Source of the DNA: a virus
Length of the DNA stretch: 20,515 nucleotides
Strand: one strand, 5' to 3'
IMG/VR virus record: IMGVR_UViG_3300017779_000223
Coordinates: 1-20,515 of that record
Shown here: piece after piece, positions 2,487-17,372 of the stretch
Layout: the number at the start of each line of letters is the position of its first letter
How positions within the stretch are numbered: the first letter of the stretch is position 1
Position numbers and translations under genes: made by a program
The notes under the pieces: model-generated
What the model was told of the DNA's origin: nothing
The model's database searches: none
Seen by the model: the letters and a program-made list of their open reading frames with translations, nothing else

Positions 2487-4778
2487 TTAACCTATTATTC
2501 CATCACCATCACCTAAAAGACCAAGTGTCAATACTTCCGTTATAGCCTGACCTCCTGACCTTTTTGGTTTTAACCAAGCATTAGTTCCATCTTGGAAATA
2601 TTGGTCTTGGCCGTGCCATTTATTTCCACTACTTGGTCTTAATCTTCCAAATGGTCCTTTCTTTGCCCAACCAAGATTATATTCAAAATGCCATTCTTCT
2701 GATTTTACTGATCTTACAAATCCAAATTTATATGAATTTGCAACTAACCAAGCATATACACCATCTTTATCAGTAGTTCTTGTTTTCTTACCATCTTTAT
2801 ATCGTTTATAATCTAAATCAATTGCAGTACCACTTTGATGTCTACTAGTTCCTGGAATTGCTACCCATGGCTTAAATTTAGTAGAACCTGCTGTCCATAA
2901 TGGACTTTTTCTGTTCTCCATGTTTGATTTTGTAGACCAACTTTTATTTATAGCACATGAATATCTACAATTTACTTGTCCAGATGCTAATTTCTTTCCT
3001 GTTTTAGGGTGGTTTATTTGATATAAACCTCTGAATGAACTATTTAATTTTAAAGATATTCCATCTTCTTTTGCAGCTCTAAATAATGCAAGAACTCGAG
3101 GTGCCATTGTCTTACGTACAGGATTTCCTTGTATCAATACAAGCTTATCTGTTCCTACTACTTTTGCATAATTAGGAGTTCCTTTTGTAGTATTAAAGTA
3201 TTCATAATCACCATCTAATTCTTCTAGGTCTGATATATCTGCAACCTCATCTAAACTCATTTCTGCACTTGCATCAATTAATCCACTAGAGCCTCCACTA
3301 CAATTGTAAGATGGCATTACATTTCCATTTGAATCATATCTTGATCCTGCACAACCGGTTGAGTCTCCTGAATTACCACCTATACATTCTTGTAATGCAT
3401 CAAATGTTGGACTTGCTAATGTTATTGGAATTTGTTGACCCGAACACATATATATTGAAGCCTTATCTCCGTTAATATCTTCAATTATATAATCATTATT
3501 TTGATTTGTTTGGTTGGTAGATTGACCGGCTCTTAATATATTAATTGGAGCTGGTTGTCCTGCTGTACCAGCACTATATGATGGCTGTACTACATATCGT
3601 TTTGGATCTTTTGGATTAATTGTTGATCCTAATCTAATACTTTGGCCAAACCTACCTTGGATAAGCATATCACCTTCATATGGCTGTAAATTATTTAAAT
3701 CTTCTTGTTCAACAAAATCTTGATTTTCACCTCTATTTTTCCCTCCTCTAGGATTGCTAGTATTTGGATTAGAGTTTGGACCTCCTCCTCCAGGTGGTTT
3801 AGGATTAGGTGTAAAATTATTTAATTCTTCTAATGTATAAAAGTTTTTATCTCCCATACCTCTTGAATTTTGTGGAAGACTTTTTATCTTATCATAACTA
3901 AAAGTAGTTTGTCCTGCATCATATTGTTTTTGAAAATCGTAATTTTCAGCTCCTAATGTAGATAATTCTAAATAACCTGTATTTGTATCATATCCAAATT
4001 TTTCTTCAGACTCTTTAAATTCTCCTGTATATCCTCCTTCTTCTAATTCTTTTTTATAGTCTTCAATTTTTTGTTCTTTATCTTTTAGGCCTGCTTCATC
4101 TTTACCAGGAGCTCCTAAATCTAATTGGTTCTTATATACAAGTACAGCTTCTTCTAATTTTTGAAATTTTTCTACCATAGAAGTTGATAAATAATCCATG
4201 TTTGGTGGAAGTTTATCCATATTCTGTTTTGTATTAACTGTACCTGCATCCGTCGGTGCTTTATTTGTTGTTGATGGATTTCCTGATTCTATATTTTCAT
4301 ATGCCTCAGTTTTAGATTTTTTTTCTCCATCTTGTACAGTATTTGTCTTACTCTTTACCCCACCATCTGCAGCTTGAGGATTTGCATTTAAATGTACATT
4401 ACCACCAAGATATACTGGCGGAAGATAATACCAATCAACATCAAATTGATTTCCTGTTTTTTTATCTCCTGATTTTGTATCGGGTGGCGCTGATCCTGCT
4501 TCTGGTCCAGGACCTTGGAAGCATATAACATGTTCTCCAACCAATGGTGTTTTTATAATGTTTCCATCTGCTGGATATGCTGTTATTTTTTTACCTGATG
4601 TTTTATTTCCTGCGCCTGTCATGTTACCTTGTAACATTACTTCTATTTCACCACGTACAGTATCTTTAGCTTCGTCTTCACCGCCACCTTGTTTTGTTTT
4701 TTCTTTTGCAGCAGTTTTTTGGTTGAATGCATTATCAATGCTAACAACTTCACCATAGCCCCAAGTTATACTACTCAT
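2487..4778 (-). CDS. gp5-like baseplate hub protein with C-terminal M15 (VanY-type) peptidase
   Basis: This 763-residue protein probably forms the central hub/spike and digests peptidoglycan during entry. The N-terminal 130 residues (WGYGEVVSIDNA, then VGEHVICFQGPGP) fit an OB-like gp5 start. The middle is low-complexity, rich in Gly, Asn, Pro and Lys, and leads to EGDMLIQGRFGQSIRLGSTI at about 370-390, a typical hub segment of T4-like marine phages. The C-terminal domain carries both M15 D,D-carboxypeptidase signatures: SRHQSGTAIDLD (ligands about H647 and D654) and EEWHFEY (catalytic E694, ligand H697). T4 gp5 instead carries a lysozyme domain in its middle, so the wall-cutting module has a different family and place. 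The start overlaps the previous stop as ATGA, implying translational coupling. Confidence 0.9.
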   Translation of the reverse strand: MSSITWGYGEVVSIDNAFNQKTAAKEKTKQGGGEDEAKDTVRGEIEVMLQGNMTGAGNKTSGKKITAYPADGNIIKTPLVGEHVICFQGPGPEAGSAPPDTKSGDKKTGNQFDVDWYYLPPVYLGGNVHLNANPQAADGGVKSKTNTVQDGEKKSKTEAYENIESGNPSTTNKAPTDAGTVNTKQNMDKLPPNMDYLSTSMVEKFQKLEEAVLVYKNQLDLGAPGKDEAGLKDKEQKIEDYKKELEEGGYTGEFKESEEKFGYDTNTGYLELSTLGAENYDFQKQYDAGQTTFSYDKIKSLPQNSRGMGDKNFYTLEELNNFTPNPKPPGGGGPNSNPNTSNPRGGKNRGENQDFVEQEDLNNLQPYEGDMLIQGRFGQSIRLGSTINPKDPKRYVVQPSYSAGTAGQPAPINILRAGQSTNQTNQNNDYIIEDINGDKASIYMCSGQQIPITLASPTFDALQECIGGNSGDSTGCAGSRYDSNGNVMPSYNCSGGSSGLIDASAEMSLDEVADISDLEELDGDYEYFNTTKGTPNYAKVVGTDKLVLIQGNPVRKTMAPRVLALFRAAKEDGISLKLNSSFRGLYQINHPKTGKKLASGQVNCRYSCAINKSWSTKSNMENRKSPLWTAGSTKFKPWVAIPGTSRHQSGTAIDLDYKRYKDGKKTRTTDKDGVYAWLVANSYKFGFVRSVKSEEWHFEYNLGWAKKGPFGRLRPSSGNKWHGQDQYFQDGTNAWLKPKRSGGQAITEVLTLGLLGDGDGIIG

Positions 4779-14425: not shown

Positions 14426-14905
14426 CTAAAAGTTTCCTGGTGCTACTTGCATACATGTTAATCCTATTTCTCTCCACATATTGACAACTTTATCTCTATC
14501 ATCAAATACTGCTACTACTTCTACTTCGTCCATATCTTCAGGATTAACAAATACTTCTTCAAACCAACCTAATTTTAATTTTTCATCAGGCATAAATTTG
14601 AATGGATGTTTAATAGGACGCATTTTTAATATATCATATTCAACTTCATATTCTTTTAACCAGTCTTTAGTAACTTGTTCTGATGATGCACTTCTACCTG
14701 AAAATATTGCTATTTTATATCCAAAAGCTTTTAATGCTTGAGCCATCATAATTACTGGTTGATTTGGTTCATCAGATGCGACAAGTTTATCTGAAAAAAA
14801 TATATCCCAATCCATTTTACCAGACTTAGATGCTAATTTTCTACGTATTTCGATATTGGCTAACGTGCCATCTAAATCGAATATTACCCATTTATCTTTA
14901 TTCAT
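14426..14905 (-). CDS. HAD phosphatase resembling the PNK 3'-phosphatase domain
   Basis: This 159-residue protein matches the C-terminal phosphatase half of T4 polynucleotide kinase (PseT), which removes 3'-phosphates from DNA or RNA ends for repair and ligation. HAD motif I is FDLDGTLA (D10 nucleophile, D12 acid/base), motif II is FSGR (S69), motif III is the Lys in DEKLKLGW (about K109/K111) and motif IV is FDDRD (D135, D136). Family-specific features include KMRP (94-97), VVNMWREIGLTCMQVAPGNF-type ending and a WLKE helix. The kinase half is absent, so it is a stand-alone phosphatase or works with a kinase encoded elsewhere. It precedes the DUF4494-like gene. Confidence 0.85.
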   Translation of the reverse strand: MNKDKWVIFDLDGTLANIEIRRKLASKSGKMDWDIFFSDKLVASDEPNQPVIMMAQALKAFGYKIAIFSGRSASSEQVTKDWLKEYEVEYDILKMRPIKHPFKFMPDEKLKLGWFEEVFVNPEDMDEVEVVAVFDDRDKVVNMWREIGLTCMQVAPGNF

Positions 14906-15331: not shown

Positions 15332-15363
15332 CTTTTTACAGCTTTTTTTGAAAAAGTTTACAA

Positions 15364-15390
15364 AAAGAAAGACGCCGAAACGCCTTTCTT
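15364..15390 (-). terminator. Intrinsic terminator of the outer-membrane/membrane protein unit
   Basis: On the minus strand AAGAAAGGCG and CGTCTTTCTT can form a 10-bp stem (one G-U pair) around the loop TTTCGG, followed directly by TTT. It lies 19 nt after the stop of the two-helix membrane protein. It is the only clear intrinsic terminator I find in this window, and on the plus strand no U-run follows, so it acts on the minus strand. Confidence 0.8.
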
Positions 15391-15409
15391 ATATAACAAA
15401 TTAAACTAA

Positions 15410-15634
15410 TTATTTTTTAGTAAAAAATGACATTACAATTACTAATACGATCAATCCTACAAAACCACCATTACCTAGTGCTTCTACAAGAGCTGATAAA
15501 TTAGCTATTACATCCATGCCAAATACTGTACCACCTGTTAAAACGGTCCACAAGATTGATACTGGTATTACTGCCATCATTACTGATAATAGTCCACCAA
15601 AAAATCCTGTTACATATTTAATTACTGAATCCAT
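15410..15634 (-). CDS. Small two-helix membrane protein, holin-like topology
   Basis: This 74-residue protein has two membrane helices (about 9-34 and 55-71), a Gly-containing, mildly acidic loop and a KK end. GAGG stands before the ATG. Size and two-helix topology match class II holins, but other small phage membrane proteins look the same, and no endolysin gene is next to it. It shares a unit with the outer-membrane protein before it and is followed directly by an intrinsic terminator. Its 5' leader has a GGCAATTTTGCC hairpin and one arm of a 13-nt inverted repeat. Confidence 0.75.
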   Translation of the reverse strand: MDSVIKYVTGFFGGLLSVMMAVIPVSILWTVLTGGTVFGMDVIANLSALVEALGNGGFVGLIVLVIVMSFFTKK

Positions 15635-15679
15635 ATTTAATCCTCTTTTTTATTTAATTATTTTGTGGCAAAATTGCCT

Positions 15680-15692
15680 AATTAGAGAGCTC
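15680..15692. repeat. Left arm of 13-bp inverted repeat flanking the OMP gene
   Basis: AATTAGAGAGCTC on the plus strand; its exact reverse complement is at 16167-16179. The two arms lie just after and just before the coding region at 15708-16118. On the minus-strand transcript they could base-pair and loop out the gene. Confidence 0.7.
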
Positions 15693-15707
15693 GTTTACTG
15701 TTACTTA

Positions 15708-16118
15708 TTAAAACTTAAACCCAAACCCTAATGTAAGGTTTGTAGTCTTAGTCCCTGTATTATAAACGACTTTTGGATCTACGTAAATATTACTTCTTAA
15801 AGTAAATAATTTACCAGCTCCAATTGACATTCCATCCGTAGATAGTCCGTCGGTTGCTAAATAAGCAAAATATCCTTTTATAAAATATCTTGCATGGAAA
15901 TCGATATCCATATCCACTGTTGAATCTGCTTGGCTTACTGAAGCACCTATCATTAGGTTATCCATTACACCGTAGCCGATTGTTGGAGATACTGACCATT
16001 CGGTCCATGCTGTATTTGCTACATCACCTGTACCTACGTACCAGTCTCCTGTTGTTTGTGCATTCATTCCAACTATCGTTGAGAATACTAATGCTAATGT
16101 TAAAATCAATTTTTTCAT
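15708..16118 (-). CDS. Outer-membrane beta-barrel protein with signal peptide
   Basis: The 136-residue precursor starts with a textbook signal peptide (MKKLILTLALVFSTIVGMNA, likely cut before QTT), in the style of Bacteroidota secreted proteins. The mature part of about 116 residues is made of alternating strands (WSVSPTIGYGVMDNLMIGASVS, FHARYFIKGYFAYLATDG, SIGAGKLFTL, NIYVDPKVVYNTG, NLTLGFGFKF) and ends in Phe after a beta-signal, so it should be inserted in the outer membrane by the Bam machinery. It is shorter than OmpX or OmpW and may form a small barrel or an oligomer. It has a 144-nt 5' gap with palindromes and its own promoter-like box. Phage outer-membrane proteins often block receptors against other phages; that role is inferred. 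Confidence 0.85.
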   Translation of the reverse strand: MKKLILTLALVFSTIVGMNAQTTGDWYVGTGDVANTAWTEWSVSPTIGYGVMDNLMIGASVSQADSTVDMDIDFHARYFIKGYFAYLATDGLSTDGMSIGAGKLFTLRSNIYVDPKVVYNTGTKTTNLTLGFGFKF

Positions 16119-16166
16119 AAAATTTCTCCTTTGTTTTATTATGCCACTATTGGCTTTTTATGTAAG

Positions 16167-16179
16167 GAGCTCTCTAATT
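16167..16179. repeat. Right arm of 13-bp inverted repeat flanking the OMP gene
   Basis: GAGCTCTCTAATT on the plus strand, the exact reverse complement of 15680-15692. It is in the leader of the outer-membrane protein message, between a palindrome and a GCCAATAGTGGC hairpin that precedes the ribosome site. Confidence 0.7.
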
Positions 16180-16184
16180 TATGT

Positions 16185-16202
16185 ACGCCATACGTATAGC
16201 GT
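16185..16202. promoter_or_regulatory. 18-nt near-perfect palindrome in the OMP leader
   Basis: On the minus strand ACGCTATACGTATGGCGT pairs with itself over all nine positions, with one G-U pair (one mismatch as DNA). It lies about 70 nt before the OMP start and 50 nt after the promoter-like box, so it could be an operator or an mRNA 5' structure. It is unusually GC-containing for this AT-rich gap. Confidence 0.5.
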
Positions 16203-16248
16203 AAATCTCCTAATTCATAATACTAATGTATAATATATAAAATATTAT

Positions 16249-16262
16249 TCGTTAGTCCTAAT
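16249..16262 (-). promoter_or_regulatory. Promoter-like box ATTAGGACTAACGA of the OMP unit
   Basis: The minus strand reads ATTAGGACTAACGA, then ATAATATTTTATATATTATAC, just after the stop of the 16265-16564 gene. It matches the box at 14394-14407 at 13 of 14 positions. It would drive the outer-membrane and membrane protein genes, leaving a leader of roughly 100 nt. Confidence 0.5.
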
Positions 16263-17186: not shown

Positions 17187-17372
17187 TTATGATCTTTTAG
17201 ATTCTAATACTGATTGTTTTCTGTAATCGGTTACTAATTTTTTTATTTCACCAATTGATTTTCTTGCTCTTGTTGCTGCCGCCTTATTACCTTTATCGGT
17301 AAATTTTCTATGATTCTCTTGAAACTCTTCCCAAAGGTTATTCAATGTATCATATAACTGAGTTGTACTCAT
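17187..17372 (-). CDS. Histone H1-like (Hc1) DNA-binding protein
   Basis: The 61-residue product closely resembles the Hc1-type histone H1-like proteins of Bacteroidota. The characteristic core FTDKGNKAAATRARKSIGEIKKLVTDYRKQSV (about 24-55) matches the family pattern KGNKAAGTRARK...L.KL...FRK. It is a basic helical protein expected to bind and compact DNA; in a phage it might condense the phage genome or disturb the host nucleoid. AGGAGAAAAGTT precedes the ATG, and a CATATTTATTTTAAA motif lies upstream, so it heads a late-type unit with the three small genes after it. The host-type family supports a Bacteroidota host. Confidence 0.85.
   Translation of the reverse strand: MSTTQLYDTLNNLWEEFQENHRKFTDKGNKAAATRARKSIGEIKKLVTDYRKQSVLESKRS

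Follow-up and report, generated by a model that had tools for sequence, protein, structure and literature searches.

A predicted, covarying long-range helix around an outer-membrane barrel gene of marine T4-like phages

Introduction

Does a phage unit that pairs an outer-membrane barrel with a small membrane protein merely alter the host surface, or does its layout also serve the expression of its genes? The window analysed here, a whole stretch of 20,515 nucleotides of viral DNA (IMG/VR record IMGVR_UViG_3300017779_000223), carries such a unit on its minus strand, in the order leader, gene for a 136-aa barrel, gene for a 74-aa two-helix protein (TM) and terminator. The initial annotation described this unit as insulated and moron-like. 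Its main feature, absent from that description, is a predicted long-range helix, P1, with the barrel gene in its apical loop. The features of the unit, all on the minus strand and in the direction of transcription, are as follows.

16119 to 16262, minus strand: structured leader of the unit (from folding)
16184 to 16203, minus strand: outer 5' hairpin, UACGCUAU-ACGU-AUGGCGUA
16167 to 16179, minus strand: arm A of P1, AATTAGAGAGCTC, in the barrel leader
16165 to 16162, minus strand: short inner helix strand UUAC, which prolongs arm A
16143 to 16154, minus strand: CAAUNNUG-type small hairpin, GCCA-AUAG-UGGC, past arm A and ahead of the barrel start
16126 to 16131, minus strand: Shine-Dalgarno sequence AAGGAG of the barrel gene
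15708 to 16118, minus strand: gene for the 136-aa outer-membrane barrel, placed in the apical loop of P1 (from the ORF, the model and Pfam matches in relatives)
15698 to 15695, minus strand: inner partner GUAA, beside arm A'
15680 to 15692, minus strand: arm A' of P1, GAGCTCTCTAATT, in the barrel–TM spacer
15667 to 15678, minus strand: CAAUNNUG-type small hairpin, GGCA-AUUU-UGCC, past arm A' and ahead of the TM start
15641 to 15645, minus strand: Shine-Dalgarno-like GAGGA of the TM gene
15410 to 15634, minus strand: gene for the two-helix membrane protein TM, 74 aa (from the ORF and a structure model)
15362 to 15390, minus strand: intrinsic terminator past the TM gene, AAGAAAGGCG-TTTCGG-CGTCTTTCTT followed by a T run

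A two-gene envelope unit

The barrel protein has a signal peptide ending in MNAQ and a C-terminal F, and structure prediction, which the initial annotation had proposed as a check of its barrel assignment, bears that assignment out: the AlphaFold model (pLDDT 74) is eight-stranded and resembles the N-terminal barrel of OprF (VIA Z 13.5) and OmpA (12.3), and in structure comparison also OmpW and other outer-membrane barrels. Eight strands together with a signal peptide place it among the small outer-membrane barrels of the OmpX/OmpA/OmpW type, and 26 of 40 aligned barrel relatives match Pfam OMP_b-brl (best 2e-6). Ail gives only a weak fold match (Foldseek E 5.7e-3) and the Lom/Ail family gives no Pfam match; a sequence search against solved structures returned nothing useful. 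The tailed Vibrio phage nt-1 likewise encodes an outer-membrane barrel of eight strands (R9TIU5, structure match E 4.8e-4), but the two proteins share only 13% sequence identity, and the portions of the literature consulted report neither a paired TM gene nor an enclosing helix for small phage barrels such as that of nt-1. The TM protein, also recognized in the initial annotation as a two-helix membrane protein, is modelled as two long helices, a trait of class II holins; it had no family match in a profile search and no fold match in a viral structure library. The two proteins would alter the envelope of the infected cell, the barrel at its outer membrane and TM at its inner one.

The long structured leader and the terminator described in the initial annotation are both upheld. 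The whole unit folds with z = -7.9 relative to shuffled sequences, the leader being strongly structured, and a terminator-like hairpin lies within 80 nt of the TM stop in 91 of 109 relatives, against 24 of 109 after shuffling; a generic terminator scan of the window did not have the hairpin at 15390-15362 among its calls. The promoter boxes of that annotation were not confirmed: sigma-70-type sites in the window number 114 against 111.3 expected by chance, and a Bacteroidota-type motif at 15330-15299 is as frequent as chance predicts. Elsewhere on the same strand, the window encodes a histone H1-like Hc1 domain protein (17187-17372, Pfam E 1.1e-18) and a stand-alone polynucleotide kinase phosphatase domain (14426-14905, HAD_PNKP, E 3.5e-27).

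Relatives of the unit, confirmed by tblastn, occur in more than 100 IMG/VR contigs of marine T4-like phages (counted among the matches listed, at most 80 loci per query, which favour close relatives), with 59-90% identity to the window for the barrel and 41-89% for TM. Neither TM nor either of the two barrel types described below had a match among 50,697 annotated phage records, and tblastn of Flavobacterium phage immuto with barrel and TM gave none. The unit is found in at least three genomic contexts, namely at the g5184-hub (g5184 being gp55-like), between g16265/g16571 and g14908 (the window's own context) and after g12275, and the unit is missing from the g5184-hub junction of one record (L174). 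In two others (L294, L312) the frames past TM read by eye like a prohead core protein and a major capsid protein. Units of the g5184-hub context (e.g. L088, L084, L137) have leaders with repeated AAAGGTTA boxes upstream, possibly a phage promoter or regulatory element. TM precedes the barrel in a few records; seven of them (L121, L122, L277, L278, L282, L283, L284) have TM and then a type-2 barrel, and no P1 was seen in them by eye. Among the matches listed, the cellular relatives are confined to two short MAG contigs, one of which (L330, binned as Flavobacteriales) has a barrel alone, a 53% relative at 3998-4414 followed by a terminator-like hairpin.

The unit is best explained as an envelope operon of marine T4-like phages that comprises two genes and is bounded by a terminator. 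The label 'moron-like' is partly supported by these comparisons: the terminator, the several contexts, the presence or absence of the block, as at the empty g5184-hub junction, the lack of a match in immuto and the loss or replacement of the barrel alone (see below) agree with it, but its lysogen-expressed sense does not apply, because the carriers look like lytic T4-like phages. The very high conservation of barrel and TM makes the unit hardly a random passenger. That it is an ordinary moron which blocks superinfection or alters the surface, with P1 incidental, would fit the layout just described and the occurrence of small outer-membrane barrels in other phages, but leaves the covarying helix described below unexplained, and is the least probable of the explanations considered here.

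A predicted long-range helix around the barrel ORF

In P1, positions 16179-16167 of the leader pair with positions 15692-15680 of the barrel–TM spacer, so that the whole barrel ORF is enclosed. Within 1 kb, the window has no other perfect inverted repeat of 13 nt than these two arms. When the flanks of 34 genes were tested for pairing, the barrel gene gave -23.1 kcal/mol and the next best gene -13.5, and P1 is present in both the minimum-energy and the centroid structures of the transcript. In the relatives, the centre of P1 lies at a median of about 38 nt upstream of the barrel start and 26 nt past its stop.

Among the relatives the arms are unrelated in sequence, yet the two arms of a unit remain complementary, as in AATGAAGAGCG/TGCTCTTCATT (L003), CGAAAGCATGTT/AACATGCTTTCG (L008), GCGCGATG/CATCGCGC (L034) and ATTAACTATGAAGGT/GCCTTCATAGTTAAT (L129). 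For 12 arm types, the summed pairing of matched arms was -204.7 against -138.9 (sd 10.4) for permuted partners, and none of 100,000 permutations was as extreme; when the arms were grouped by the 5-mers they share, 8 groups resulted, too small a number for a fine permutation test, and the matched sum was still extreme. An earlier duplex statistic that permitted long bulges proved noisy and gave way to the one used here. In the GAGCTC arm family, both members of four pairs have changed, and none of 500 shuffles reaches the covariation score or the percentage paired of the family.

The P1 statistics were taken on the 92 of 111 distinct units that have a spacer of at least 45 nt. All 92 have at least six contiguous pairs and 86 have at least seven, and a helix of -13 kcal/mol or lower is found in 83, against about 14 with shuffled leaders (largest value 21), these counts taking in related sequences with no tree, so that the events are not all independent. 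At the same threshold, the flanks of TM gave 16 of 90 and the leader paired with downstream sequence 10 of 90. The pair probability of P1 has a median of 0.94 and reaches 0.5 in 80 of the 92 units; in some units P1 may be only 6-8 bp. Six of the 92 (L276, L301-L304, L306), with spacers of 47-48 nt and weak arms, have no predicted helix and are not counted as P1, and eight barrel–TM lineages with short spacers lack it. A chance repeat is ruled out by the permuted partners, the shuffled leaders and the comparison with other genes, and a general trait of genes in these phages by the TM-flank and other-gene controls. The predicted helix and its covariation are well supported by comparison of sequences. 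No Rfam 15 family reaches its gathering score within the unit, and we found no description of a P1-type element in the literature.

Exchange and loss of the barrel between the arms

Two types of barrel, B1 and the 144-aa B2, share slots and arm types: B2 occurs with window-type arms in L149 and L275, and with L029-type arms in L250, L263, L265 and L268. In L149 (6891-7053), the spacer before arm A' is about 90 nt longer than usual, perhaps the scar of a barrel swap. Four lineages have no barrel (L084, L215, L137 and L141). L084 and L088 are nearly identical on both sides, and the part missing from L084 is exactly the loop between the arms. The joined arms form a hairpin in L084 and L215; those of L137 and L141 amount only to a short palindrome, too small for a good hairpin. 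We infer that the barrel is accessory and exchangeable, and its turnover, together with the predicted localisation of the proteins, suggests an accessory modification of the envelope.

The exact loss in L084 and the presence of two barrel types within the same arms are what one would expect if the arms acted in DNA, as an inverted repeat or cruciform for gain, loss and swapping of the barrel. Several observations make this very improbable. The arm sequences drift, homologous recombination in the flanks explains the swaps, and no inverted barrel was seen among the relatives. In addition, among interior single mismatches in P1, a small sample, five are G.U and one is A.C, and the small hairpins associated with P1 are strand-specific.

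In many units these small hairpins, NNCAAUNNUGNN, flank P1 at its inner or outer ends. Around the unit, their density is about 70 times that on the rest of the coding strand, and the non-palindromic copies in UTR segments are all sense (64, with 0 antisense). This density and this sense-only bias favour a function in the transcript, and a role of P1 in the mRNA is the reading best supported by the sequences. The same figures would also be accounted for if the small CAAUNNUG hairpins, presented by P1, served as the operator of an RNA-binding protein from phage or host, whose binding switches translation of barrel and TM. As the position of the hairpin relative to P1 varies and some units have no hairpin, we consider such an operator distinctly unlikely.

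Possible action of P1 in the mRNA

Our proposal, built throughout on sequence comparison and prediction and given an even chance, is that P1 clamps the mRNA: it would protect and insulate the barrel cistron and organise a pair of Shine-Dalgarno-led starts. Together with the flanking small hairpins, P1 would close the barrel message on itself, shield its ends from RNases, separate the barrel and TM cistrons, and present two Shine-Dalgarno-led start sites so that translation is strong, probably at a late stage of infection.

In rRNA processing stems (16S, 23S), sequences before and after a segment of the transcript pair and enclose that segment. The enclosed segment is rRNA there but an ORF in P1, the cleavage of which is hypothetical. 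A stem of the RNase III processing type, the cutting of which would free the barrel message as a monocistronic RNA and leave a message for TM starting near the GGCAAUNNUGCC hairpin, is an unlikely alternative to the clamp: arms that vary freely provided that they pair are expected where a helix rather than a sequence is recognized, and further small hairpins flank P1, but in many P1 helices the contiguous pairs number only 6-9, which is short for RNase III. The icaR mRNA of Staphylococcus aureus resembles P1 in that a 5' leader and a region past the stop codon pair around an ORF (PMC3868564). In icaR, however, the 3' UTR pairs with the Shine-Dalgarno sequence and represses translation (PMC3868564), whereas P1 covers neither Shine-Dalgarno sequence, arm A ending well upstream of that of the barrel gene and arm A' lying upstream of that of TM, and, unlike icaR, P1 has arms that covary across many phage lineages.

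Shine-Dalgarno use, bS21 and host

In units with P1, the two genes have a strong Shine-Dalgarno sequence in 96% and 99% of cases. In the short-spacer class either figure is 4%, and L105, a Shine-Dalgarno-led exception there, has P1. Since other genes of these loci differ likewise (39% with a Shine-Dalgarno sequence in the P1 class, 5% in the other), this usage is a property of the phage group. A gene for bS21 is present in 8 of 13 large records of the P1 class and in 0 of 9 others, records that may be fragments; the eight are those behind L008, L014, L018, L055, L068, L006, L110 and L013. One bS21 reads as 111 aa (L333). The link of P1 with Shine-Dalgarno use and bS21 may reflect common descent or the host.

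According to the sections of the two papers that we consulted, Bacteroidia ribosomes normally hide their anti-Shine-Dalgarno sequence and ribosomes that lack bS21 initiate better on strong Shine-Dalgarno sequences (PMC9976891), and one proposal is that phage bS21 gives late phage messages an advantage (PMC9723584). Like the phages treated in these papers, the present group encodes bS21, and its genes described here have strong Shine-Dalgarno starts; those sections describe no P1, and the link here is a correlation only (PMC9723584, PMC9976891).

A wider and more tentative reading, possible rather than probable, is that P1 represents a new kind of cis-acting RNA, in which a hairpin would be a slot for whole genes, the stem evolving freely yet remaining paired and the loop taking various barrels or none, as part of a phage programme that turns translation to Shine-Dalgarno-led messages by means of its own bS21. 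To our knowledge, covariation has seldom revealed helices that enclose a whole protein-coding gene in mRNAs of bacteria or phages, and here evolution appears to have kept the message folded around a surface-protein gene that can be swapped. The natural compensatory changes, gene swaps and losses in the loop across lineages make closure of the mRNA testable with simple reporters, and the tie to Shine-Dalgarno use and bS21 would provide a handle on how bS21 phages redirect host ribosomes.

As to the host, two of the three genes tested (those for the HD and g8639 proteins) point to Flavobacterium phage immuto as the closest cultured relative, and Microcystis phage Mel-JY01 ranks first for g5184. 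Immuto has no bS21, and a Shine-Dalgarno sequence at 1 of 18 genes in the 12.7 kb examined. The signal peptide and the kinship with immuto suggest a Bacteroidota host for the P1 class, a tentative assignment in view of Shine-Dalgarno use and permuted tmRNA.

Phage-encoded permuted tmRNA genes, with tag peptides ending in AMAA, were found by ARAGORN in L004 (10355-10647), L008 (2804-3098), L012 (331-625), L018 (2785-3079), L035 (2585-2879) and L104/L107 (9245-9587), and Rfam RF04321 also matches the tmRNA in L004, L008, L012, L035 and L107.
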